NCBI GenBank assembly: GCA_029239675.1
Contig: JARBUM010000008.1
Span: forward strand, 1 to 64,000
From: Pelosinus sp.
GTDB taxonomy: Bacteria; Bacillota; Negativicutes; DSM-13327
DNA: 64,000 nucleotides
Direction of reading: 5' to 3'
Positions within the stretch are counted from its first letter, which is position 1. Each line of letters opens with the position of its first letter. Below, piece by piece: positions 24,143-57,077 of the stretch. The position numbers and the translations under genes were made by a program. The notes beneath the pieces were generated by a model that was not told the DNA's origin, searched no databases, and saw only the letters and a list, made by a program, of their open reading frames with translations.

Positions 24143-24802
24143 TTAGCCTTCCAAATCTAATAGCCCTTTCTTCATAGCGTATTTAACCATCTCAGGCCTG
24201 GTTTTTAAGTGGAGTTTTTCCATGATTCTAGCTTTGTAAGCTTCAACTGTTTTAACAGAAAGACAAAGTTGCCCGGCAATATCTTTATTCGCATACCCCA
24301 TAGCCACTAAACGCAAGGTTTGCTTTTCTCGTTCCGTTAATAACTGTAATGGTTCAAATTCTTCACCTTTATTTCCCTGACGCAAAAATCCTTCAATTAA
24401 TGATTTGGCGGCAGATGGATATAAATAGGATTCCCCTTGATGAACTGTGCGAATGGCCTTAAGTAAATCAAAGTCAGGAGCATTTTTTAAAATATATCCC
24501 ACTGCTCCCGCCTTTAGAGACTGAAACAGATATTCTTCATCATCATGCATGGTTAGAATTAGCACCCTCGTTTCTGGCAGCAATTCCTTTAATCTAGCAG
24601 TAGCAATCAGACCATTCTCACCTGGAGGCATACTCAAATCCATAAGTGCTACCTGTGGAAGAAGTTTTACCCCTAATTCCACTGCTTCTCTGCCATCGGC
24701 GGCCACCCCTACCACCTGCATATCCTGCTGAGAATTGATTAGCATGGCTAGCCCAGAACGGACAACGGCATGATCATCAGCTATTAGAACACGAATGGTC
24801 AT
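24143..24802 (-). CDS. nreC: NreC-like LuxR/NarL-family response regulator
   Basis: The 219-residue protein has a receiver domain (acidic pair at Asp9-Asp10, phospho-acceptor Asp55 in ALMDLSMPP, Thr/Lys switch in LTMHD and YILKNA) and a C-terminal LuxR helix-turn-helix (LTEREKQTLRLVAMGYANKDIA... near 154-200). It overlaps nreB by 26 nt, so kinase and regulator are translationally coupled. In staphylococci NreC activates nitrate and nitrite reductase genes. Palindromes of the type I recall as its site (TAGGG-N4-CCCTA) stand before narK and asrA in this window. The name rests on the complete nreABC neighbourhood; NarL-like regulators of other systems share the same domains. Confidence 0.88.
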   Translation of the reverse strand: MTIRVLIADDHAVVRSGLAMLINSQQDMQVVGVAADGREAVELGVKLLPQVALMDLSMPPGENGLIATARLKELLPETRVLILTMHDDEEYLFQSLKAGAVGYILKNAPDFDLLKAIRTVHQGESYLYPSAAKSLIEGFLRQGNKGEEFEPLQLLTEREKQTLRLVAMGYANKDIAGQLCLSVKTVEAYKARIMEKLHLKTRPEMVKYAMKKGLLDLEG

Positions 24803-25862
24803 AGGCTCTTTCCTCCTCTTTGTCTAAGGGAACATACACTCGAATTGTAGTACCACAATCCGCTCTGGAAGTAATGTCAAGGGTTCCGCCAATTAGTTTC
24901 GCTCTTTCACGCATACCATAAAGCCCCAGTCCTGTTCCCAGCACTTCAATTTTCTCTAAATTAAATCCCCGCCCCAAGTCTGTAACAACCAAATACAACA
25001 GTTGATCTTTTTCCTCAAAACGTATCTCCAGTGTGTCAGTATTCGCATATTTAGCCGCATTAATCATAGCTTCTTGACATATGCGATAAAGGGCCGTTTC
25101 TATGGATGACCCATAACGGCGTTCTTGTCCTACAACAGATAAATTTGTTACTATGCCATAGGTTCGTTCAAATTGTTTAATATAAGAACGCAAGGCTGGC
25201 ACAAGTCCCCAATCATCAAGGGAGGAAGGCCTAAGATCTACAGCAATATGTCGTACTTCATCTAAAGCCTGAACCGCCATATCTCTTACTAGTTGAAAAT
25301 GGCCTTTTAAGTCATCTTCAAGTTCCATTTGTTCAATTATATTAAGCCCTACAATCATGCTATAAATAGTCTGACCCACTCCATCATGTAGTTCACGCGA
25401 TACCCTTTTACGCTCCTCTTCTTGTGCCTGAATCATATAATTAGCCATTTTTTTCTGGACATGTTTTTGTTCTTGTTTATTGTGTTCCGACATATCTCGA
25501 AGCACAACAATCAAAAAAGCGCCGACATGCTGAGGCAAACGAGTCGTACTAGCTGCTGCAGAGAAAATGTGCCCATTTTTGTGCAATAAACGAATCTCAA
25601 ATGAAGAGATGCTTTCTAATGTAGTAAAACAATTTATACAAGCAGTAAAATCTGCACATTTATTCATTCCATGGCAAATATCGCATAGGTTTACTTTCTG
25701 AATCAACTCATCAGTGCAGTAACCTGTCAATCTTTCCATTGACGGATTCGCACCAGCAATAACGCCATTCTCATCTAAAATGACAATTGCATCACTTGCA
25801 TACTGAAAAATTGTTTTTAATAATGACTCCGAAGTTTTTTGCTTCACACCGATAGCCTCCAT
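24777..25862 (-). CDS. nreB: NreB-like oxygen-sensing PAS histidine kinase
   Basis: The 361-residue soluble kinase has an N-terminal PAS domain (about 10-125), a HisKA_3 dimerisation segment with the phospho-acceptor His159 in SRELHDGVGQ, and a HATPase_c domain (NAAKYANT near 275, DLGRGF, GTGLGLYGMRER). The PAS domain carries C60, C63, C75 and C78, the C-X2-C-X11-C-X2-C spacing that binds the oxygen-labile [4Fe-4S] cluster in staphylococcal NreB, whose acceptor is also His159 as I recall. An extra Cys69 sits midway between the pairs. No membrane segment is present. It lies 23 nt after nreA and overlaps nreC. Under anoxia the cluster should be intact and the kinase active. Confidence 0.92.
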   Translation of the reverse strand: MEAIGVKQKTSESLLKTIFQYASDAIVILDENGVIAGANPSMERLTGYCTDELIQKVNLCDICHGMNKCADFTACINCFTTLESISSFEIRLLHKNGHIFSAAASTTRLPQHVGAFLIVVLRDMSEHNKQEQKHVQKKMANYMIQAQEEERKRVSRELHDGVGQTIYSMIVGLNIIEQMELEDDLKGHFQLVRDMAVQALDEVRHIAVDLRPSSLDDWGLVPALRSYIKQFERTYGIVTNLSVVGQERRYGSSIETALYRICQEAMINAAKYANTDTLEIRFEEKDQLLYLVVTDLGRGFNLEKIEVLGTGLGLYGMRERAKLIGGTLDITSRADCGTTIRVYVPLDKEEERAYDHSCSNS

Positions 25863-25885
25863 TATAGCAAATACATGATCGTCTC

Positions 25886-26320
25886 TCAGACACCTATTAT
25901 ATCTCCCATTTCTTTAGCAACTGCTTTCGCTAACTCAACTACTACTTCTTCTATTGTACATGGAGTACGGTAACCAATTAATAACACACCTTTTACTCTA
26001 CCCTTCATCACAACTGGAACTCCTAAAGCTGACCGCAGTTCCTCAGCGTAAAGAATAGGATATTCCTGAGGGTCATCATGTTGCCTAGACTCATAATTTT
26101 CCAATAACATTGGTCGCCCTGACATCAATACTTTTCCCGCAATGCCCTTACCAGAGCGCAATACAATTCGTCGAAAACGTTCATTTTTATTACCCACTGC
26201 ATATTTCCAACGGATGGCAGCTTTGCCTGATTCTTGACAAGCAAAAGCCGAAAAATCAGCGCCAGTCCGTAGTCGCAAATCCTCCAAACAGCTACTGATT
26301 AGTCCTTCTAGTGTATTCAT
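25886..26320 (-). CDS. nreA: NreA-like GAF-domain nitrate sensor
   Basis: This 144-residue protein consists of one GAF domain (strands RWKYAVGN, VLRSGKGIAGKVLMSGRPMLL, ALGVPVVMKGRVKGVLLIGYR). In Staphylococcus NreA is a single GAF protein that binds nitrate and restrains NreB when nitrate is absent. Size, single domain and position directly before nreB and nreC fit this role. I cannot confirm the nitrate-contacting residues by eye. The gene has its own promoter at 26354-26382 and an ATG with GGGAGAAG before it. It is 122 nt after narI. Confidence 0.82.
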   Translation of the reverse strand: MNTLEGLISSCLEDLRLRTGADFSAFACQESGKAAIRWKYAVGNKNERFRRIVLRSGKGIAGKVLMSGRPMLLENYESRQHDDPQEYPILYAEELRSALGVPVVMKGRVKGVLLIGYRTPCTIEEVVVELAKAVAKEMGDIIGV

Positions 26321-26441: not shown

Positions 26442-27143
26442 TCAATGAAAGGATTTGGCTTTTAAATCCCGACTAAAATATTGGATATATGCTCTATTTA
26501 TATATTCTATAGGCATACTCCATACATGTACTAGTCTTGTAAAAGGCCACACGGCAAATATTCCAAAACCTACAGCAACATGAAGTTTGAAAACTAGAGG
26601 CACAGTAACCATTAAGGAAACATCAGGCTGCAAGAATAGCAAACCTCTAAACCAAGGCCCAATGGTTTCTCGATAATCAAAACTACCGATGCTCAGAACA
26701 TTCGTAATTGTACTTGCCAACCCTAACGAGACTTCAACTAGGACCATTAGCACAACAACTAAATCAGCCATGCTACTAACCGCAAATACACGATCATTGC
26801 CAAAGCGACGTAGAGTAAGAATAAGGATACCTGCTAATGTGACTAGGCCAGCTGGTCCTCCACCATAGACAGCAGCCATATGGTACATATGTTCATTCAC
26901 CCCAATGGATTCGAAAAAGGCTTTTGGAATCAATAGACCTGAAACATGCCCCCCAACAACAGCTAGAATACCAATATGGAATAACATACTGCCCCACCAT
27001 AAACTGCGTTTTTCTAGCAATTCACTTGATCTAGCTGTCCACCCTAATTTATCCTTGTTATAACGATAAATGTGTCCTAATACAAAAATAGTTAATGCCA
27101 CATAAGGATAAATTACCCATAAAAATTGTTCTCCAAAATTCAT
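26442..27143 (-). CDS. narI: Respiratory nitrate reductase gamma subunit NarI
   Basis: NarI is the membrane cytochrome b that passes electrons from quinol to NarH. The 233-residue protein has five helices and the four heme ligands His56, His66, His188 and His206, which match E. coli His56, 66, 187 and 205 within one residue. GGGGGAGG stands before the ATG at 27143; its ATG overlaps the narJ stop as ATGA, so the two are translationally coupled. The longer frame upstream lies inside narJ and is not likely to be used. Confidence 0.95.
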   Translation of the reverse strand: MNFGEQFLWVIYPYVALTIFVLGHIYRYNKDKLGWTARSSELLEKRSLWWGSMLFHIGILAVVGGHVSGLLIPKAFFESIGVNEHMYHMAAVYGGGPAGLVTLAGILILTLRRFGNDRVFAVSSMADLVVVLMVLVEVSLGLASTITNVLSIGSFDYRETIGPWFRGLLFLQPDVSLMVTVPLVFKLHVAVGFGIFAVWPFTRLVHVWSMPIEYINRAYIQYFSRDLKAKSFH

Positions 27144-27691
27144 GATAGACCTCCCCCTGTGCGGGCAGTTTCTGAACATAGGATTGGAGCTGTAGATCCC
27201 ACACAGATCTCAAGTAACCCTGCATAAGGACTATGATTCTCTAAAAGTTGTTGCCACAATTTTTCCATACCTAGCCTTACAATCTCTAACACTTGCTTAC
27301 ATGATTCTTGGCTGGCAATAGATAAAAATTCAAGTAACATGGGAAGATAGTCAGGTAACTCCTCCGTGTCTACTTCAAGCCCAGCTTGTAAGTAGATACT
27401 TTTCAAATCTGCTAACACCTGCCCACGCTTCCGATCGTCAGGGCAAATTAGAGAGGTAATATATAGATTACAGTGTTCATTAAAATCAAAAGTTGCTACA
27501 TATTTTTCCGCTAATTCCTCACAACTCTTATGATCTAAATAGTTTAGAAAGGCATGCACATTTTCCATCTTTGGCAATTTTTCTAAGTCAGTTGTCAATG
27601 CACGTAACTGATTGTTTTCCAGCCAACTACTGTTAGGATATTGAAGCAATAAGGACAATAGTTGCAACATCTCTCTTTCTTCATCTACCAC
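27140..27691 (-). CDS. narJ: Nitrate reductase assembly chaperone NarJ
   Basis: NarJ is the cytoplasmic chaperone needed for cofactor insertion into NarG and for membrane attachment. The 183-residue all-helical protein shows the TorD/NarJ pattern (LSLLLQYPNSSWL, a YVATFDF segment, LYITSLICPDDRKRGQVLADLKSIYLQAGLE in pieces, ELPDYLPMLLEFLS near residues 105-118). The start is placed at a GTG (27691) because AGGAGG lies 8 nt before it; this overlaps the end of narH by 11 nt. It sits in the usual place between narH and narI. Confidence 0.93.
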   Translation of the reverse strand: MVDEEREMLQLLSLLLQYPNSSWLENNQLRALTTDLEKLPKMENVHAFLNYLDHKSCEELAEKYVATFDFNEHCNLYITSLICPDDRKRGQVLADLKSIYLQAGLEVDTEELPDYLPMLLEFLSIASQESCKQVLEIVRLGMEKLWQQLLENHSPYAGLLEICVGSTAPILCSETARTGGGLS

Positions 27692-29162
27692 CTTCTTCAC
27701 CTCCTGTACCAGAACATGAATTACCCTGGGGTAAGGAATAACCACAACTACCTTGTTCTTTATATACATTAACGTACTTTTCCTGATGAGATGTGGGAAT
27801 TACAAAACGATCCTCATATTTTGCAATAGCTAGCAAACGGTACATCCTCTCTACAGCAATTCCATCAAGACCGACCTCTCTCAGCTTATCTGTGTCAACG
27901 TTTTTCTTCGTGTTGATTGATCGCATGTAGGTTCTCATAGCTAGTAGCTTACTTAATGCGGCCTTAACAGATACTTTATTGCCAGCAGTCAAGATATTAG
28001 CTAGATACTCAATGGGAATGCGCATATCATCAAGTAAAGGAAAGAGGTTTTGACTTACCCCCTGCTCCTTTGCAGCACTAACAATCGGACTAAGAGGCGG
28101 AATATACCATACCATGGGCATGGTGCGAAATTCCGGATGCAATGGCAGGGCCACCCCATATCGCACGGCTAAATCATAAATGGGGGAACGTTTGGCACCT
28201 TCTAACCAATCTTCACGAATGCCATCTAGGCGAGCCTTTGCAATCACCTCTGGATCCGCAGGATCTAAGAATACCCCAAGCTGAGCCTCATATAATTCCT
28301 GCTCATTGACAATTGATGCCGCTTCTTTTACTTTATCCGCATCATACAATAGAACTCCCATATACCGCACTCTACCAGAACAAGTTTCCGAACAAATCGT
28401 AGGTTGACCAGATTCCACCCGTGGAAAACAGAAAATGCATTTTTCCGCTTTATGTGTTTGCCAATTAAAATACACTTTTTTATAGGGACAGCCAGTCATA
28501 CATAGACGCCAGCTTCGACAAGCATCCTGATCAACTAATACAATACCATCTTCTTCGCGCTTATAAATGGCACCCGAAGGACAAGCTGCCACACAACCAG
28601 GATTTAAACAATGCTCACAAAGTCTTGGTAGATAAGCCATAAAGGTTTGCTCAAACTCAAATTTTACTTTTTCCTGCATCTTCACTATATTTGGATCTCT
28701 AGTACCAGTTTGATGAACACCTGCTAAATCATCTTCCCAATTCGGCCCCCACTTGATCTCCATATTCTTGCCAGTAATGACGGATTTAGGACGAGCGACT
28801 GGCTGATAGCGTTTTGTAGGGCTGTTAAGTAGTTTTTCATAATCATAGGTCCAAGGCTCATAGTAATCATCAAGGGTAGGCATATCAGGATTATGAAACA
28901 ACTTAAATAATAACTTTGCCAAACGACTACCGCCTTTTAGCCTAAGCTTACCATCTTGTAGCTCCCAACCGCCCTTAAACTTTTCTTGATTCTCCCATTC
29001 CATAGGATAACCAATGCCAGGCTTGGTTTCTACATTATTGAACCACATATACTCCGCACCCTCACGATTGGTCCAAGTATTTTTACAGGTCACACTGCAA
29101 GTGTGACAGCCAATACACTTATCTAAATTGATTACCATAGCCAATTGCGCTTTAATCTTCAA
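27681..29162 (-). CDS. narH: Respiratory nitrate reductase beta subunit NarH
   Basis: NarH carries the four iron-sulfur clusters that link NarI to NarG. The 493-residue protein has the four cysteine groups: CIGCHTCSVTCK near residue 16, CEHCLNPGCVAACP near 182, CRSWRLCMTGCPYKK near 216 (the Trp replaces a cysteine and gives the [3Fe-4S] cluster), and CIFC/CSETCSGR near 244-262. The length is typical for the family. The gene overlaps narG by 11 nt upstream and narJ by 11 nt downstream, consistent with stoichiometric translation. Confidence 0.97.
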   Translation of the reverse strand: MKIKAQLAMVINLDKCIGCHTCSVTCKNTWTNREGAEYMWFNNVETKPGIGYPMEWENQEKFKGGWELQDGKLRLKGGSRLAKLLFKLFHNPDMPTLDDYYEPWTYDYEKLLNSPTKRYQPVARPKSVITGKNMEIKWGPNWEDDLAGVHQTGTRDPNIVKMQEKVKFEFEQTFMAYLPRLCEHCLNPGCVAACPSGAIYKREEDGIVLVDQDACRSWRLCMTGCPYKKVYFNWQTHKAEKCIFCFPRVESGQPTICSETCSGRVRYMGVLLYDADKVKEAASIVNEQELYEAQLGVFLDPADPEVIAKARLDGIREDWLEGAKRSPIYDLAVRYGVALPLHPEFRTMPMVWYIPPLSPIVSAAKEQGVSQNLFPLLDDMRIPIEYLANILTAGNKVSVKAALSKLLAMRTYMRSINTKKNVDTDKLREVGLDGIAVERMYRLLAIAKYEDRFVIPTSHQEKYVNVYKEQGSCGYSLPQGNSCSGTGGEEGGR

Positions 29163-32100
29163 GCCAAGACACCTCCTTCAACTTACGAACCGCAACATAA
29201 ATATCTCTTTGATTCCCAATTGGCCCGTAATAGTTAAACCCATAACTAAGCTGAGCATATCCGCCAATACACTGGGTGGGTTTAACATGAACACGTGTAG
29301 GGCTGTTGTGTGTACCGCCTCGTTGACCAGTAATGGAGGAACCGGGGACATTAATGTGCCTATCTTGGGCATGATACATGTAAAGAGTACCTCTCGGCAT
29401 ACGATGACTCACCACCACTCTAGCAGAGACTACACCATTACGGTTATACACTTCTACCCAATCATTATCCTTAAGATCTGCCTGCAAAGCATCCTGGTGA
29501 TTTATCCATACATGAGGTCCACCACGGAATAAGGTCAGCATATGCAGGTTGTCTTGATAAGTACTGTGTATATTCCATTTGCCATGGGGAGTAAGATATC
29601 TTAGGACAATTTCCTTGCCTTCTGCTAAGGGTTTATGCTCTTTGCCAGCAAACAGCACAGGCGATAAAGTCGGTTTATAAACAGGCATGGCTTCACCAAA
29701 CTCCAGCATGATTTCATGATCAATATAGAAATGTTGTCGTCCTGTCAGTGTACGAAAAGGCATCAAGTGATCGATACTGGTGGTAAAGGGTGAGTAGCGT
29801 TTATCCCCTTGATTAGATCCAGTAAATACAGGTGTAGGGATGACCTGCCTAGGCTGAGCAGTTATATCATTAAAAGTAATTTTTTCTCCTGCCCGACCAG
29901 CGCTGATATCTTTAAGCTCCATGCCTGTTTTCTTTTCTGCATCTTCCCAAGCTTTCATGGCCAATTTGCCATTGGTAGCACTTGATAAAGTGAGTATTGC
30001 TTCTGCAGCTTGGCGAGCTTTTTCGATAGTAGGACGACCGAAGGCTACACCAGGCACTGTGATCTTTCCATTAATTTTTTTAAGTTCTTCGTATTGTTCT
30101 TTTACTGAAAATGCAATACCATGCGCTCCTACTGGATTTTTTTCCAATAATGGTCCAAGAGAGATAAATTTATTATAAATTTCTTTATAATCTCGTTCCA
30201 CCATTACCATATTCGGCATAGTTTTTCCAGGTATCGCCTCCACTTCCCCCTTGCGCCAGTCCATTACTTTACCAAAAGGCTGAGCAATCTCGCCTGGTGA
30301 GTCATGCATAAGAGGTACTGCTACGATATCTTTTTGTACTTCCGGTAGATATTCTATCGCCATTGCGGAAAAGGTCTTTGCCAATTCTTTAAAAATGTCC
30401 CAATCAGACTTCGCTTCCCATGGCGGACTAATTGCTGGATTGAAGGGGTGAACAAAAGGATGCATATCCGTACTACTTAAATCCGTTTTTTCATACCAAG
30501 TAGCAGCAGGCAGCACAATATCAGAATAAAGAGCAGTACCAGCCATACGGAAATCTAAATTAACTAATAAATCCAGTTTTCCTTCTGGAGGGGCATTATT
30601 CCACTCAACTTCCTCTGGCCTCAAATCCTCATTTGGTTCCGATAAGAGACCATGAGATGCTCCCAGTAAATATTTTAGAAAATACTCATGCCCCTTACCC
30701 GAACTAGAAATAAGATTAGAACGCCAGACAAATAATCCACGAGGGTGATTCGCAGCATTGTCAGGATCTTCTACAGCGAAGGACATGGACTTATCTTTTA
30801 GTTTTTTGACCACATGATCGATTACTTTTTCAGACGTTTCAGCTCCTGCCTGCGTGGCCTCCGCACTTAGCTGCAAAGAGTTTTGACTAAACTGAGGATA
30901 AGAAGGCATCCAGCCAAGGCGGGCGGCCAATACGTTATAGTCTGCTGGATGGCTGTAGCGGCTTTTGGCCACTGTCGGTGATTTTAGACCATTCATACTA
31001 TGTGTTTCATACTGCCACTGATTGGTGGCAAAATAAAAGAAGGAAGTTGCATTCTGCAGGCGAGGCGGCATTGACCAGTCACGAGCAAAAGCTACCGTAC
31101 CCCATCCTTCTATGGGACGGCACTTTTCCTGTCCTACATAATGAGCCCAACCGCCACCATTTATGCCCTGACAGCCCGTTAGAATTACCAAATTCAATAT
31201 AGCCCGATAAATGGTGTCTCCATTGAACCAATGATTAATGCCTGCTCCCATGATAATCATGGACCGTCCTTTCGTATCAGCAGCATTTTGTGCAAATTCT
31301 CTGGCTATCTGAATCACCAAATCAGACTCCACATTCGTATGTTTCTTTTGCCAGGCTGGGGTATATGTCTGTTCATCATAATAATTGATAGGATATTGCC
31401 CTGGCAGATTGCGTTCAACTCCATATTGAGCCAACATAAGATCAAATACAGTTGTGACTCGTAGCAGTTTGCCGTTCTTCATGATCAATTTCACAGGAAT
31501 ACCCCGTTTAACAATTCCAGTACCGCCCTCCGTAAATTCTGGAAGATCCACACAGATTTGCTCATCTTCTTGCCCTAAGAGTGTTAACAATGGCGCTAGA
31601 ACCTCACCAGCCTCATTCTCCATTTTTAAATTCCATTGTCCCGTACTATCCCAACGTTGGCCTATGGTCCCCTTCGGAACAGCTAGACCATCCTGTAAGG
31701 TATCCCACAATACTGGTTTCCACTCTCCTTTGTTCGCTGCTAGCCCAAGATCACTAGCTCGTGCAAAGCGGCCTGGAGTATATACAGAATCGTTTTGTTC
31801 AATTAACACCAAAAAGGGCATATCCGTAAACTGTTTGGCATAGTCGATAAAATATTCTTCTTGTTTCTCAACATAAAACTCTTTTAATATAACATGGGTC
31901 ATAGCCTGAGCTAAGGCGGCATCTGAGCCCGGGTTAACTGGGAGCCAATTGTCCGCAAACTTTACATTTTCCGCATAATCCGGACTAACTGCTACTACCT
32001 TCGTGCCTTTATATCGTACTTCCGTCATAAAATGAGCATCCGGTGTCCTGGTCATTGGTACGTTGGAACCCCACATTATGATATATCCAGCATTATACCA

Positions 32101-32841
32101 ATCGCTACTCTCTGGCACATCTGTCTGCTCACCCCAAATTTGAGGCGAAGCAGGCGGTAAATCCGCATACCAGTCATAAAAGCTTAGCATCGGCGCACCC
32201 AAAAGGGATAAAAACCTTGATCCAGCTGCATAGCTTACCATAGACATGGCTGGTATGGGAGTAAAACCAGCAATACGGTCAGGTCCATAGGTAATAATGG
32301 TATAGATCAGCATAGCTGACATGATCTCATTAACCTCTTGCCAGTCGGCCCGCACAAATCCGCCCTTTCCTCGCACTTCTTTATATAGTTTTGTTTTATT
32401 CCCATCTTCTACAATAGAACCCCAAGCCTTTACTAAATGGCCATTGCTATTTTTAACTGCCTCACGCCATAAGGACAATAATTGGCGGCGGATATAGGGG
32501 TATTTGACTCTAAGAGGACTATATACATACCAAGAGAAGCTAGCCCCTCTTGGACACCCTCTAGGCTCAAATTCTGGCATATCTGGTCCTGTGGAGGGAT
32601 AATCAGTCTGCTGGTTTTCTGACGTAATAATACCGTCCTTCACAAATACCTTCCAGCTACAGGATCCTGTACAATTTACACCATGGGTAGTGCGTACAAC
32701 TTTGTCATAATTCCATCGCTGTCGGTATATAGCTTCAGATTCTCTATCATCTGCAACCACTTGGCTCCAACCATTCTCTGACTTTTCCTTTGTCTTAAAG
32801 AAATTTAGTTTTTTCCATAATGGTAATCTTTTCTTCTCCAT
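29152..32841 (-). CDS. narG: Respiratory nitrate reductase alpha subunit NarG
   Basis: NarG reduces nitrate to nitrite at a molybdenum bis-MGD centre on the cytoplasmic face of the membrane. The 1229-residue protein has the His-ligated [4Fe-4S] site (His53, Cys57, Cys61, Cys96) and the FYDWYADLPP segment whose Asp223 corresponds to the Mo ligand Asp222 of E. coli. The WGEQTDVPES and NVPMTRTPDAHF motifs are typical. There is no Tat leader, as for all cytoplasm-facing NarG. It starts 21 nt after narK and is thus in the same operon. Confidence 0.98.
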   Translation of the reverse strand: MEKKRLPLWKKLNFFKTKEKSENGWSQVVADDRESEAIYRQRWNYDKVVRTTHGVNCTGSCSWKVFVKDGIITSENQQTDYPSTGPDMPEFEPRGCPRGASFSWYVYSPLRVKYPYIRRQLLSLWREAVKNSNGHLVKAWGSIVEDGNKTKLYKEVRGKGGFVRADWQEVNEIMSAMLIYTIITYGPDRIAGFTPIPAMSMVSYAAGSRFLSLLGAPMLSFYDWYADLPPASPQIWGEQTDVPESSDWYNAGYIIMWGSNVPMTRTPDAHFMTEVRYKGTKVVAVSPDYAENVKFADNWLPVNPGSDAALAQAMTHVILKEFYVEKQEEYFIDYAKQFTDMPFLVLIEQNDSVYTPGRFARASDLGLAANKGEWKPVLWDTLQDGLAVPKGTIGQRWDSTGQWNLKMENEAGEVLAPLLTLLGQEDEQICVDLPEFTEGGTGIVKRGIPVKLIMKNGKLLRVTTVFDLMLAQYGVERNLPGQYPINYYDEQTYTPAWQKKHTNVESDLVIQIAREFAQNAADTKGRSMIIMGAGINHWFNGDTIYRAILNLVILTGCQGINGGGWAHYVGQEKCRPIEGWGTVAFARDWSMPPRLQNATSFFYFATNQWQYETHSMNGLKSPTVAKSRYSHPADYNVLAARLGWMPSYPQFSQNSLQLSAEATQAGAETSEKVIDHVVKKLKDKSMSFAVEDPDNAANHPRGLFVWRSNLISSSGKGHEYFLKYLLGASHGLLSEPNEDLRPEEVEWNNAPPEGKLDLLVNLDFRMAGTALYSDIVLPAATWYEKTDLSSTDMHPFVHPFNPAISPPWEAKSDWDIFKELAKTFSAMAIEYLPEVQKDIVAVPLMHDSPGEIAQPFGKVMDWRKGEVEAIPGKTMPNMVMVERDYKEIYNKFISLGPLLEKNPVGAHGIAFSVKEQYEELKKINGKITVPGVAFGRPTIEKARQAAEAILTLSSATNGKLAMKAWEDAEKKTGMELKDISAGRAGEKITFNDITAQPRQVIPTPVFTGSNQGDKRYSPFTTSIDHLMPFRTLTGRQHFYIDHEIMLEFGEAMPVYKPTLSPVLFAGKEHKPLAEGKEIVLRYLTPHGKWNIHSTYQDNLHMLTLFRGGPHVWINHQDALQADLKDNDWVEVYNRNGVVSARVVVSHRMPRGTLYMYHAQDRHINVPGSSITGQRGGTHNSPTRVHVKPTQCIGGYAQLSYGFNYYGPIGNQRDIYVAVRKLKEVSWLED

Positions 32842-32862: not shown

Positions 32863-34164
32863 TTAGCACCTGATCTCTGCATTTTTGCGATTATAATAAT
32901 GCCTAATTACAAATAAACTTATTATATAAAAGACAATAAAACAATATAAGGCTATGGCTGGTGATCCAGTATTCTGTGTTGACCATCCAAAAGCCTTGGG
33001 AACAAAAAATGCACCATATGCAGCAACGGCTGAAATAAAACCAATAGCTGGTGCTGCTTCTTTAGGACTAAATATTTTAGAGAGCATTCCAAAAGTAGAA
33101 CCGCTGGCTGCCCCAGTAGTAACAAATAAAATTAATGCCATGATGAAAAATACGATAAAATTATGTTGATTCATAAAAAAGATAACTCCCAAAGTGGCAC
33201 CAACCATAATAAAAATAGACCAGAAGCTTACTCGTGCCCCACCATATTTATCAGCAGCCCAGCCTCCTATGGGGCGAGAAAGAGCACCTACTAGAGGACC
33301 TAAAAAAGCATATTCCAAAGGATTAATGCTGGGAAATTGAAATTTTATCAATAAGGGAAACACTGCTGAATAGCCAATAAAAGACCCAAAGGCAATAGTA
33401 TAGATAAAACTCATAATCCACATATGTTTACAACTAAAGATGCCGAATTGTTCACGTACAGATGCTTTTGCAGTCTCCAGATTATTCATTCCAAAAAATG
33501 CGGCTACTGTGATCACGACAATGGGAATAATCCATACAAAAGCAGCATTTTGCAGCCAAATATTTTTACCAATCTCACCATTCACTAGCGTTTGAGCCTC
33601 ACCACCTATACTGCCGAAAAGCCCAAAGGTGACTACAAGAGGTGCTACAAACTGTACTACACTAACGCCTACATTGCCCAAGCCCCCATTTATCCCGAGG
33701 GCAGTTCCCTTTAGTTTCTTAGGGAAAAAGAAGTTAATGTTACCCATAGATGACGCAAAATTCCCTCCGCCTAAGCCACATAATATAGCCAATATAGCCA
33801 TGGTCCTATAGGTTGTAGTACTATCCTGTACTGCATATCCAATACCAATCGCGGGGATCAAAAGAGATGCAGTACTAATCACAGTCCAATTTCGACCACC
33901 AAAAACAGGCACTACAAAAGCATAGAAAATGCGTAAAGTTGCACCTGATAATCCTGGCAAAGCGGCTAAATTAAATAACTCCTCTGCGCTAAAGTTAAAC
34001 CCTGCATTATTAAGATTAACAGCTATAACCGACCATAACATCCAAATACAAAAAGCTACGAGTAGAGCCGGAACAGAGATCCATAAATTCCGGTTCGCAA
34101 TTTTTCTACCCTCCTGCTCCCAGAAAATAGGGTCCTCCGGATTCCATGTTTTCAATTTATACAA
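32863..34164 (-). CDS. narK: NarK-type nitrate/nitrite transporter (MFS, NNP family)
   Basis: The 433-residue MFS protein has 12 helices and the nitrate signature GGGNFASSMGNINFFFP near residues 130-146, plus a second Gly-rich signature TTGAASGSTFGML near 353-365. It should take up nitrate and export nitrite, either as an exchanger or with protons. The start at 34164 is a TTG placed 8 nt after AAAGGAGG; the frame continues seven codons upstream to another TTG, but that would put the ribosome binding site inside the gene. It heads the narKGHJI operon, whose promoter carries two TAGGG-N4-CCCTA-type palindromes. Confidence 0.93.
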   Translation of the reverse strand: MYKLKTWNPEDPIFWEQEGRKIANRNLWISVPALLVAFCIWMLWSVIAVNLNNAGFNFSAEELFNLAALPGLSGATLRIFYAFVVPVFGGRNWTVISTASLLIPAIGIGYAVQDSTTTYRTMAILAILCGLGGGNFASSMGNINFFFPKKLKGTALGINGGLGNVGVSVVQFVAPLVVTFGLFGSIGGEAQTLVNGEIGKNIWLQNAAFVWIIPIVVITVAAFFGMNNLETAKASVREQFGIFSCKHMWIMSFIYTIAFGSFIGYSAVFPLLIKFQFPSINPLEYAFLGPLVGALSRPIGGWAADKYGGARVSFWSIFIMVGATLGVIFFMNQHNFIVFFIMALILFVTTGAASGSTFGMLSKIFSPKEAAPAIGFISAVAAYGAFFVPKAFGWSTQNTGSPAIALYCFIVFYIISLFVIRHYYNRKNAEIRC

Positions 34165-34210
34165 TGACTGGTCCTCCTTTAGCAAATATGTAATATATAT
34201 TGTCAGATTA

Positions 34211-34238
34211 ATTTTAATATTTTGTCGACAAAAAGTAA
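34211..34238 (-). promoter_or_regulatory. narK operon promoter (activator-dependent type)
   Basis: On the - strand TAAAAT (34211-34216) is a good -10 box; 16 bp upstream stands only a poor -35 (TTACTT, 34233-34238). The same elements occur at the same spacing before asrA. The centre of the nearest palindrome is about 44 bp before the predicted transcript start, suitable for an activator that touches RNA polymerase. Confidence 0.6.
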
Positions 34239-34287
34239 TGTAGGGAATTCCCTATATAAATCTTGGGAATTCCCTACATTACTTTTT
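34230..34287. promoter_or_regulatory. Paired NreC-like palindromes in a 23-bp inverted repeat
   Basis: The arms 34230-34252 and 34265-34287 are exact complements. Each contains a smaller palindrome: TAGGGAATTCCCTA at 34241-34254 and TTGGGAATTCCCTA at 34263-34276, of the TAGGG-N4-CCCTA form. The hairpin has T5 on both sides, so it can also act as terminator of asrC while serving as activator site for narK. Confidence 0.7.
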
Positions 34288-34292
34288 GAAGC

Positions 34293-35246
34293 TTACCAAT
34301 ATATATATTCCGCTACTTGTGCCTCAGGATTTAAATTTATATCTTTTAATGCCCAAGTTTTGAATACTTGATAACCCGTTCTATCGACAATGTACCCTAC
34401 ATGTTCCTTTCCTCCTGGTGCATCTTTATCGATATAATGATGAACATAATCATAGGTATTCTTAATGATCCCCAAGATACTAGCTTCATCAATCCACTTG
34501 ATAAAAGGTTGAGCAATTCTCGGATTCTTTCTTCCCGTTCTCCCCATAATTACAAGCTGATATAATTTATTGGCACTTCTACTCCAGGCTCCTGTTGGGC
34601 ACTTTAACACACATTCTCCACAACCAATACATTTATCCGAATTCCTAGCCACCTTAAAGCTTTCAAACTTCAATGCACCAGCAGATTTCTTTTCACAAGC
34701 TTTTACACATGCTTGGCAACCAATGCACCGATAAGAATCATACCGCGGTTCGTTCGTACCAATAATGCCAAAGTCATTCATTCTCGCTTTAATACAATCG
34801 TTAGGGCAACCAGTAAGGGCAATCTTCACATGATAGTCATTGGGAAATATCACTTTCTCTATTCGTTGCGCAAAAGCACTTGTATCAAAATTAGCAAACT
34901 GACATACTCGACTACCAATACAGGCTACAACATTTCTAGTACCCGCTGCAGGATATCCTGCATTAGAAGCAGTTTGGTTAATTTCAAGTCCATCGATTAG
35001 ACTTTGGATTATAGCATTTACCTCAGCCATTTTTTCCATACTAATGCCAGGAATCTCAAAGCCTTGTCGCGTTGTTATATGAATAGTTCCATTACCGAAT
35101 GTTTCTGCTACATGCTTAACCGTATCCAGATATTTTGCTGCCATTTCTCCTCCCGGAACCCGTATTCTAACAGCAGTCTTATCTCTTTCCTTTGTAATAC
35201 GAAAGGCATTCTTTTTCAGCATCTTGGTATTCATATCCATATTCAC
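34293..35246 (-). CDS. asrC: Anaerobic sulfite reductase subunit C
   Basis: AsrC is the siroheme subunit that reduces sulfite to sulfide. The 317-residue protein shows the sulfite/nitrite reductase pattern: THITTRQGFEI-like segment near residue 57, CIGSRVCQFA near 109, and TGCPNDCIKA near 144-153, which together bind the [4Fe-4S]-siroheme pair. Two ferredoxin motifs follow (CIGCQACVKAC near 174; CIGCGECVLKCP near 203). The start GTG at 35246 has AAGGAGG in front. It is intact, unlike the two upstream genes of the operon, whose products it needs for electrons from NADH. Confidence 0.93.
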   Translation of the reverse strand: MNMDMNTKMLKKNAFRITKERDKTAVRIRVPGGEMAAKYLDTVKHVAETFGNGTIHITTRQGFEIPGISMEKMAEVNAIIQSLIDGLEINQTASNAGYPAAGTRNVVACIGSRVCQFANFDTSAFAQRIEKVIFPNDYHVKIALTGCPNDCIKARMNDFGIIGTNEPRYDSYRCIGCQACVKACEKKSAGALKFESFKVARNSDKCIGCGECVLKCPTGAWSRSANKLYQLVIMGRTGRKNPRIAQPFIKWIDEASILGIIKNTYDYVHHYIDKDAPGGKEHVGYIVDRTGYQVFKTWALKDINLNPEAQVAEYIYW

Positions 35247-35261
35247 ACTGCTCCTCCTTAA

Positions 35262-36055
35262 TTAATCAATAAAATTCTTAGCTTTCACATAATTAAATAC
35301 TGGTCCTTCAAGACATATATAGGTATCATCAATTTTACAGTGTCCACATTTGCCAATACCACAGCACATTTTTCTTTCGTATGAAACCCAAATATTTTCT
35401 TCTTTAATCCCCCTTTTCAAAAACTCTGCTACTGTGAATCGAATCATTACAGGAGGACCAACGACAACTACATTTGCCTCTGCTTGATTTGCAATCCTAA
35501 TATCATTTACATAATTTGTAATGAGCCCCGTGTTTCCTTTATACATTTCATCATCTGAACTATCTACCGTTACTATAACGTTAATTGTTTTTTGCCACTT
35601 CCCAAAATCGTCTTTATAAAGTATATCCTTAGGTGATTTGAATCCAGCAATAAGGGAAAATGCTGTAGCTTCCTTAACATTCTCAGCAAAGTAGTCTACA
35701 ACAGCTTTAACTGGAGCTAACCCATCCCACCTGCAGCAACGATAATTTCCTTTGATTTAAACAAGTTAATATCAAAACCATTTCCATAAGGCCCCCTTAG
35801 AAATAGCACGCCACCTTCCTGCAGCTCATGAATCGTATTGGTAACTAGGCCCACTCTGCGAATTGTCAATCCAATATACCCTTCACCAATTTCACTTACA
35901 GAAATGGGCGATTCGCCATATTTAGGAATAGATACCTCAAAAAATTGTCCAGGTTTTACATCGCCCTTATATTCCATTAAGAAAGTATAATCAATCGTAG
36001 TATGAGGAATTATTTTTATAATTTGGGATTTAAAAGGCAGATAGGTATTGCTCAT
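35262..36055 (-). pseudogene. asrB: Anaerobic sulfite reductase subunit B, -1 frameshift
   Basis: AsrB is the FAD subunit that takes electrons from NADH. The first part (112 codons; GQFFEVSIPKYGESPISVSEI, LRGPYGNGFD, IIVAAGGMG) ends at a TAG near 35718-35720. If one T is added, or the ribosome steps back one base, the frame continues without stop as LAPVKAVVDYFAENVKEA through to 35262, ending in the CCGIGKCGHC [2Fe-2S] motif of this family. The joined product would be about 264 residues, close to the Salmonella protein. No good slippery sequence lies at the site (G GGT TAG), so a real mutation or a base-calling error is more likely than programmed shifting. Its ATG overlaps the asrA stop (TAATG). 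Confidence 0.85.
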
Positions 36056-37046
36056 TATTTCTCCTCCACTATGCTCATAAGTTTATTTGCACAATGTGCA
36101 ATGGATATATATTCTGGACACGCATCGTCACATCTTCCGCACCCGACACACATGTGGTAACCAAAGCGTTTTTTATAATCATGAAGCTTATGCATCACTC
36201 TAAATCGCATGCGGTCTCCTTGTTTTTTGCGAAAAGAATGACCTCCTGCCATATCCGTAAAGCCATCTACCATACAGGAAGACCAAACTCTTCTTCGCTC
36301 TCCCATGTTTTTATTTTCTTTATAAAAGATATCCTGCATTGAAAAACAACTACAAGTTGGACACACAAAGCTACATCTTCCGCAACCGATGCAACGAGAT
36401 GAATATTCTTCCCAAAAGGCCGATTGTGCTAGCCCTTTTGCTAACTTGTCCGGCATAGAGACCTTTGTTTTATTTTCCATAACAAAACATGGTGAAAGGT
36501 CTACTACCTTTTCTTCCAGTCGATCCAACTCTTTATTATTAATCTCCACATATACAAAATCACCTTCAGGGCGTATAAACATATCATAATCGTCCGAAAT
36601 GTTGGTATTCATACTAACACAAAAACAGTTTGCAAAACTCTCTTGACATTCAATGAAACAAAATCTGAGTTTTTCACGAAATGCTTTATAATAAGGATCT
36701 TCACAACCATTTTTTAAATAGATATCATCTAGTCTTTTTATACCATGGATATCACAACTTCTCAGGAATAGGAGTATTTTTTTTCAGTAGTCTTAGGTTC
36801 AGTCCAATTATCCTCATTAAAATAGAATAAAGTTTCGGTGATAGGAAGAAGTATTTCCTTGGCCGAAAAATTAGATTTTACCGCAAACTCCACTTCTTCA
36901 AGCTTTTTTATCTTCTCATATCTAACAGAATCTGTATTAGTAAACGCTCCCTTTCCAGGAACAACAACAGGAGCAAAAACTATATACTCTTTTTCCAAGT
37001 TTTGTAAATATTGATTAAACGCTATCAATGACAATTTGTATGCCAT
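36055..37046 (-). pseudogene. asrA: Anaerobic sulfite reductase subunit A, -1 frameshift at A8
   Basis: AsrA is the ferredoxin-like subunit of the sulfite reductase. The N-terminal part (from the ATG at 37046, with GGAAAGGGG before it) breaks off after TTEKKYSYS. The break lies at a run of eight A (36777-36784, read on the - strand). In the -1 frame the protein continues as ILLFLRSCDIHGIKRLDD and on to two 4Fe-4S motifs (CIGCGRCSFVCPTC, CVGCGRCDDACP). The joined product would be about 330 residues, near the 347 of Salmonella. The in-frame heptamer A AAA AAA is a classic slippery site, and A8 also promotes polymerase slippage, so some full-length protein may be made. Alternatively the gene is decaying or the run was miscalled. 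Confidence 0.85.
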
Positions 37047-37159
37047 AATTGATTTTTCCCCTTTCCAACAACTTTTTTTATGCAACCCTTGATCTTGCCC
37101 CTCCAAATGGATTCATGCCTATTTCATGAGCTACTTTGCATAATAAATACATCAGACTC

Positions 37160-37187
37160 ATTTTAATAGCTAGCTGCTAAAAAGTAA
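37160..37187 (-). promoter_or_regulatory. asrA promoter, same layout as the narK promoter
   Basis: On the - strand TTACTT (37182-37187) and TAAAAT (37160-37165) have the same 16-bp spacing, and the same distance to the nearest palindrome, as at narK. Shared blocks are CATTACTTTTT, TATTAAAAT and TCTGA. Confidence 0.6.
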
Positions 37188-37230
37188 TGTAGGGAATTCC
37201 CTGTATTGCTAGAGGAAATTCCCTACATTA
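37185..37230. promoter_or_regulatory. Second pair of NreC-like palindromes, before asrA
   Basis: An inverted repeat with 18-bp arms and one mismatch contains TAGGGAATTCCCTG (37190-37203) and GAGGAAATTCCCTA (37212-37225). The arm sequence is nearly the same as before narK. Confidence 0.65.
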
Positions 37231-37338
37231 TTAATAAGTTTTTTTTCATACTTGGTTTACATGGTAATCATTTTTTAAAAGAGTATTACCTGTATCAGTA
37301 GAAAAGTTAGTGTACTATTTGGGTGACAAAAAGTAAGG

Positions 37339-37370
37339 TAGGGAATCCCCAATATACTGGGAATTCCCTA
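37339..37370. promoter_or_regulatory. Third, degenerate pair of NreC-like palindromes
   Basis: TAGGGAATCCCCA (37339-37351) and TGGGAATTCCCTA (37358-37370) form an inverted repeat with one mismatch. The 12-mer GACAAAAAGTAA beside it also flanks the narK copy. On the - strand the hairpin is followed by TTTTT some bases later, so it may also be the terminator of the DUF438 gene, which ends at 37379. Confidence 0.55.
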
Positions 37371-57031: not shown

Positions 57032-57077
57032 AAAGAGCTAGGGAGCCACCAAACAAGGTGACTCCCTAGCTCCTTTA
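57032..57077 (+). terminator. Terminator of hydG
   Basis: GAGCTAGGGAG and CTCCCTAGCTC pair, with an inner CACC/GGTG stem and a short T-rich end; it also lies behind nrfA on the other strand. Confidence 0.75.

Follow-up and report, generated by a model that had tools for sequence, protein, structure and literature searches.

The nar–asr locus and its palindromic promoters

The DNA under study, hereafter the window, comprises 64,000 nucleotides of one contig (C166) of a Pelosinus MAG (3.88 Mb, 271 contigs, 89% complete). The closest named genome is Pelosinus fermentans JBW45, with 91% identity in asrC. On the minus strand the genes run in the order DUF438/hemerythrin/PAS gene, asrABC, narK, narGHJI, nreABC and molybdopterin genes. 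The nreABC genes (24143–26320), whose presence in this window was part of the original prediction, are linked to the nar genes. They consist of nreC (24143–24802), encoding a NarL-family response regulator with Response_reg and GerE domains, nreB (24777–25862), encoding a PAS histidine kinase, and nreA (25886–26320), encoding a GAF nitrate-receptor homologue. The predicted NreB contains a CX2CX11CX2C motif (CDICHGMNKCADFTACINC), which is the exact spacing of the four NreB cysteines that serve the Fe-S cluster. These cysteines lie in the N-terminal PAS domain (PMC4601167). NreA scored 105 bits against NF038250, below the curated cutoff of 175; as none of the genomes in a 398-genome sample of the phylum passes this cutoff, it looks narrow.

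Upstream of nreABC lie narGHJI (respiratory nitrate reductase, 26442–32841) and narK (nitrate/nitrite transporter, 32863–34185), followed on the same strand by asrC (siroheme sulfite reductase subunit, 34293–35246), asrB (35270–36055) and asrA (36055–37046). AsrC passed the TIGR02912 cutoff (539 versus 324 bits), whereas AsrA and AsrB were recognised only in pieces because both genes are frameshifted. Each carries a 1-bp deletion, near 36784 in asrA (within a T homopolymer of the plus strand) and near 35721 in asrB, that is not found in five other Pelosinus haplotypes. These deletions reflect either sequence error or pseudogenes, and the one in the homopolymer may be a sequence error. The window also contains an nrfA gene (PF02335, 57079–58359), and NrfA was found in all eight Pelosinus genomes searched. 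A 5-kb contig of the same MAG (C109, L024) was considered as a second copy of the genes; its 99.4% identity to strain G002, compared with 85.8% to the window, ruled out a paralogue and indicates that the MAG mixes two Pelosinus strains.

A pair of palindromes precedes both narK and asrA, as originally predicted, at 34241–34276 and 37190–37225 on the minus strand, with centres 22 bp apart in each case. At narK the proximal palindrome is TAGGGAATTCCCTA (34241–34254) and the distal one TTGGGAATTCCCTA (34263–34276); at asrA the corresponding sites are TAGGGAATTCCCTG (37190–37203) and GAGGAAATTCCCTA (37212–37225). The common layout claimed for the two promoters was also borne out: the proximal palindrome is followed by CATTACTTTTT, ten unlike bases, TATTAAAAT and TCTGA at identical distances, and a TAAAAT −10 hexamer (34211–34216 for narK, 37160–37165 for asrA) begins at precisely 31.5 bp, counted from the centre of the proximal palindrome. 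The narK hexamer is kept in all six Pelosinus haplotypes. When 17 promoters from these haplotypes were aligned, the palindrome and a CATTACTTTT-like flank were common to all, and the −10 to all but two. The narK pair of the window is alone in having a distal flank that mirrors the proximal one (34229–34288; 29-bp arms, 93% complementary), as though it had arisen by quasi-palindrome templated mutation.

The mention of six palindromes in the original prediction implied a third pair, left undescribed, and such a pair was found upstream of asrA at 37339–37370 on the minus strand (proximal 37339–37352, distal 37357–37370, 18 bp pitch). Its flank is the same as at narK and asrA, and a decayed −10, TACACT (37309–37314), stands at the same distance as the hexamers of those promoters. 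In G005, G006 and G002 this element reads TATAAT. The third promoter of G005 and G006 keeps the 31.5-bp spacing and precedes an intact TM_HPP gene (PF04982). In G002 the promoter is intact and the HPP gene is internally deleted, with about 62 codons left (L101:16380–16840), and in G003 only the tail of a nearly lost HPP gene remains, fused to the palindrome. Because the deletion ends differ between G002 and G003, the gene was lost, at least in part, on separate occasions. The genome of the window yielded no HPP gene. HPP proteins carry nitrite in cyanobacteria and chloroplasts, according to Maeda et al. 2014 as cited in PMC7438415 and PMC4137279. Comparison of the strains identifies the third pair as what remains of the promoter of a vanished HPP-family gene, which encoded a putative nitrite transporter.

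Distribution of the doublet and its −10 element

Lone palindromes mean little: single TAGGGN4CCCTA matches with up to two mismatches occur in the window about as often as expected by chance (18 against 18.8) and are common in the whole genome, where 58 matches compare with 75 for a reversed control. The doublet, allowing up to three mismatches, was confined in its own genome to this cluster (C166 and the strain variant C109), with no match for the reversed control. Likewise, the palindrome followed by CATTACTTTT occurred only in this cluster, apart from one three-mismatch match in G006. Thus neither scan showed the scatter away from promoters that had been named as grounds for abandoning the prediction. 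Among 150 relatives, the doublet was detected in the nreABC-carrying Pelosinus genomes G002, G003, G005 and G006 and in five other genomes, with copies that look different. Five of the eight Pelosinus genomes carry nreABC and all five have the doublet, whereas it is missing from the three non-carriers (G001, G004 and G007), which have neither nreA nor a close NreC. Since nreABC, nar and asr are present or missing together within the genus, this co-occurrence cannot single out NreC.

A symmetric 14-bp weight matrix trained on 19 distinct Pelosinus sites only was run on the nar loci of other genomes. Where nreABC is linked, sites were found within 500 bp before narG of Niallia (shuffle p = 0.006), narG of G171 and G363 (0.003), narK of G484 (0.009) and narG of Limosilactobacillus fermentum (0.03). 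Only one of nine nar loci lacking linked nreABC had a narG site at p < 0.05. A pitch of 21–23 bp between paired sites was again observed in G171, G363 and G484. The check proposed with the prediction, that palindromes stand before the nar genes of relatives with nreABC, thus came out positively in Pelosinus and in other lineages, the sites being weak or missing where nreABC is not linked.

The −10 position was examined with the nearest site wherever a locus had several, and with an offset fixed from Pelosinus, although some of the non-Pelosinus sequences had been inspected by eye before the scripted test. A −10 matching at five of six positions was found at 31.5–32 bp for Niallia narG (whose palindrome has an N5 spacer, so that 32 replaced 31.5), G171 narG and narT, G363 narG and G484 narK; at G363 narT it lay one base away, at 30.5 bp. 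The chance of such a hexamer at the exact offset is about 0.01–0.02 each, and because G171 and G363 are close relatives the result counts as three of four lineages (Niallia, G171/G363 and G484). In the fourth, L. fermentum narG has the palindrome and no −10 at the expected place. Under the same rule, palindrome and −10 at the fixed offset occurred together in none of the 23 control promoters, which belong to nar or asrA genes with no nreABC linked to them, nor were the two combined at asrA of 11 relatives with unlinked asrABC or at two named loci. The site with its spacing recurs at other nreABC-bearing nar loci and is absent from those without linked nreABC, with L. fermentum conforming only in part.

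The remaining matrix matches in the window are weak; they include a terminator-like inverted repeat (57039–57068) separating nrfA from a convergent ORF at their 3′ ends. G214, G513 and G474 (L153, L154 and L155) contain a divergent NreABC-like set unlinked to nar, and their nar promoters lack the palindromes. The L. fermentum nar–nre–molybdopterin island lies on a 760-kb record that is filed as a plasmid (L141; CP033372.1). A similar doublet (GGGGATTCCC/GGGAATTCCC, 22 bp pitch) was found in G009 (contig C122, L105:9120–9155), just past a stop codon and ahead of an NDH-2 gene. It has TATAAT at 36 bp, and was rejected as an instance of the same promoter design because no −10 stands at 31.5 bp.

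NreC and alternative readings of the sites

We take TAGGG-N4-CCCTA to be the consensus of the NreC site in Staphylococcus carnosus. In staphylococci the published NreC site is a GC-rich palindrome, located at nar, nir and narT and bound by phospho-NreC (PMC8139620; PMC5694512), and the phosphorylated NreC homologue of Bacillus licheniformis binds a site predicted from that of S. carnosus (PMC9918477). The paired palindromes would be NreC activator sites that govern nar, asrABC and, where it is kept, the HPP gene, a reading to which we assign a probability of roughly 0.8. From the sites, their spacing, the −10 hexamers, their conservation and their co-occurrence with nreABC, all visible in the sequence, we infer binding and activation by NreC. 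The recurrence of doublet and −10 at nreABC-linked nar loci, set against none of 23 controls, strongly supports NreC as the predicted regulator of both operons. The proposal that NreC controls the asrABC operon in addition to nitrate reductase gained support from conservation of the arrangement before asrABC in all five nreABC-carrying Pelosinus genomes. This regulon link had been put forward as one not known to be described, and the literature searched contained no mention of it.

Instead of regulator sites, the inverted repeats could be hairpins of the upstream asrC, HPP and DUF438 genes that terminate transcription intrinsically or stabilise the 3′ end of the mRNA. Indeed, each Pelosinus pair closely follows a stop codon and folds into a strong, GC-containing RNA hairpin followed by a T run; the narK pair of the window reached −37.6 kcal/mol (z = −11.3), and the other Pelosinus pairs had z values of −3.8 to −7.9. 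However, a terminator hairpin needs neither palindromic arms nor a −10 at a fixed distance, and the alignment of the promoters revealed that the likeness of asrA and narK extends beyond the hairpin. Moreover, G484 has the same sites and spacing with no such hairpin and T run (z = −0.4), and in Niallia and L. fermentum the sites are flanked by divergent genes, which excludes a terminator function at those loci. We consider this explanation improbable as a replacement for regulator binding. It is possible that the Pelosinus pairs have a double role and also terminate the upstream transcript, a reading absent from the original prediction. A search of Rfam at the sites returned no known RNA family, the weak matches being attributable to chance.

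Binding by another NarL/LuxR-family or cluster-linked regulator in place of NreC appears comparably improbable. Pelosinus does encode many NarL-type regulators with about 40% identity to NreC, and G009, which has no clear NreA, carries the NDH-2 doublet described above. That doublet lacks the −10 at 31.5 bp, however, no other DNA-binding regulator was seen among those neighbouring genes covered by the search, and site and spacing recur in several lineages at nar operons with linked nreABC and not at those without it. The length of the inverted repeat and its three copies in 3.2 kb might also suggest a dispersed MITE- or REP-like repeat that came to lie before both operons by chance. This was rejected: no further copies were found in the Pelosinus genomes searched, and the existing ones keep their place and promoter context while their spacers diverge, leaving a mobile repeat barely credible.

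If NreC is the regulator, the phosphorylated protein, encoded about 10 kb away, would bind as two dimers on the same face of the DNA, the 22-bp pitch corresponding to two helical turns. With the −10 hexamer placed at −12 to −7, the nearer dimer would be centred at about −43.5 and the farther one at −65.5. Both promoters have a poor −35, as is typical of class II activator promoters, and the nearer dimer would compensate for it in that fashion. One signal could then switch on narK–narGHJI(–nreABC), asrABC and, in strains that keep it, the gene for the putative nitrite transporter HPP.

AsrABC, nitrite and related systems

Judged from its promoter, the "sulfite reductase" operon asrABC is probably switched on by nitrate. 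The likeliest function of AsrABC would be the NAD(P)H-linked reduction of nitrite (and sulfite) in the cytoplasm, beside periplasmic NrfA. Taken by itself, the step to a working nitrite reductase has slightly better than even odds. In Acididesulfobacillus acetoxydans, the asrABC transcript rose 29-fold and the protein 195-fold under nitrate, and the enzyme was proposed to be a nitrite reductase (PMC10949509); for this reason nitrite reduction is the likeliest role in Pelosinus. A promoter common to narK–narGHJI, asrABC and, ancestrally, a putative nitrite transporter fits such a role. Against a simple nitrite story stand the frameshifts in asrA and asrB of the window and the presence of NrfA throughout Pelosinus, which means that AsrABC is not the sole candidate nitrite reductase. 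In those examined relatives whose asrABC is unlinked to nar, this promoter is missing before asrA, which suggests that the coupling originated in Pelosinus or close to it.

Taken further, a single rule may describe NreC promoters across Bacillota: a pair of palindromes spaced by two helical turns, with the closer one centred at about −43.5. Pelosinus would have captured asrABC and the HPP transporter by this route as a nitrate-induced cytoplasmic nitrite-reduction module in which AsrABC is physiologically a nitrite reductase. For this broader proposal we see the chances as evenly balanced. From an independent, genomic side, the locus supports the recent proposal that the nominal sulfite reductase AsrABC reduces nitrite. 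Beyond staphylococci, NreC regulons can be sought by a precise signature, the doublet together with a −10 at 31.5 bp, and exact promoters can be named for testing in P. fermentans JBW45, a strain that can be cultured.

The arrangement shares a NarL-family regulator and the logic of a nitrate signal with the enteric NarXL/NarQP systems. The enteric sensor is a different one, and the NarL heptamer is unlike the paired GGG-N4-CCC sites of Pelosinus with their constant −10 spacing. The arrangement resembles the NreABC regulon of S. carnosus and S. aureus, with nreABC beside narGHJI, GC-rich palindromes before nar and narK/narT, and the cysteine motif of NreB. Unlike the staphylococcal regulon, that of Pelosinus, an anaerobe of the Negativicutes, appears to add asrABC and the HPP gene, and its sites come in pairs with a 22-bp pitch and a set spacing to the −10. 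The NreBC system of B. licheniformis (sqr/pdo) likewise has an NreC homologue that recognises a site predicted from S. carnosus, but it lacks NreA, responds to sulfide and targets sulfur oxidation, whereas in Pelosinus nreA and nar genes are linked (PMC9918477). A. acetoxydans, like Pelosinus, has asrABC and narK–narG in one organism and a proposed role of AsrABC in nitrite reduction; nitrate induction is known for A. acetoxydans, from a paper that does not mention NreC (PMC10949509). Its asrABC genes (DEACI_4025–4027) are numbered far from narK–narGHI (DEACI_1354–1357), whereas in Pelosinus asrABC adjoins nar and the two share a common promoter design.
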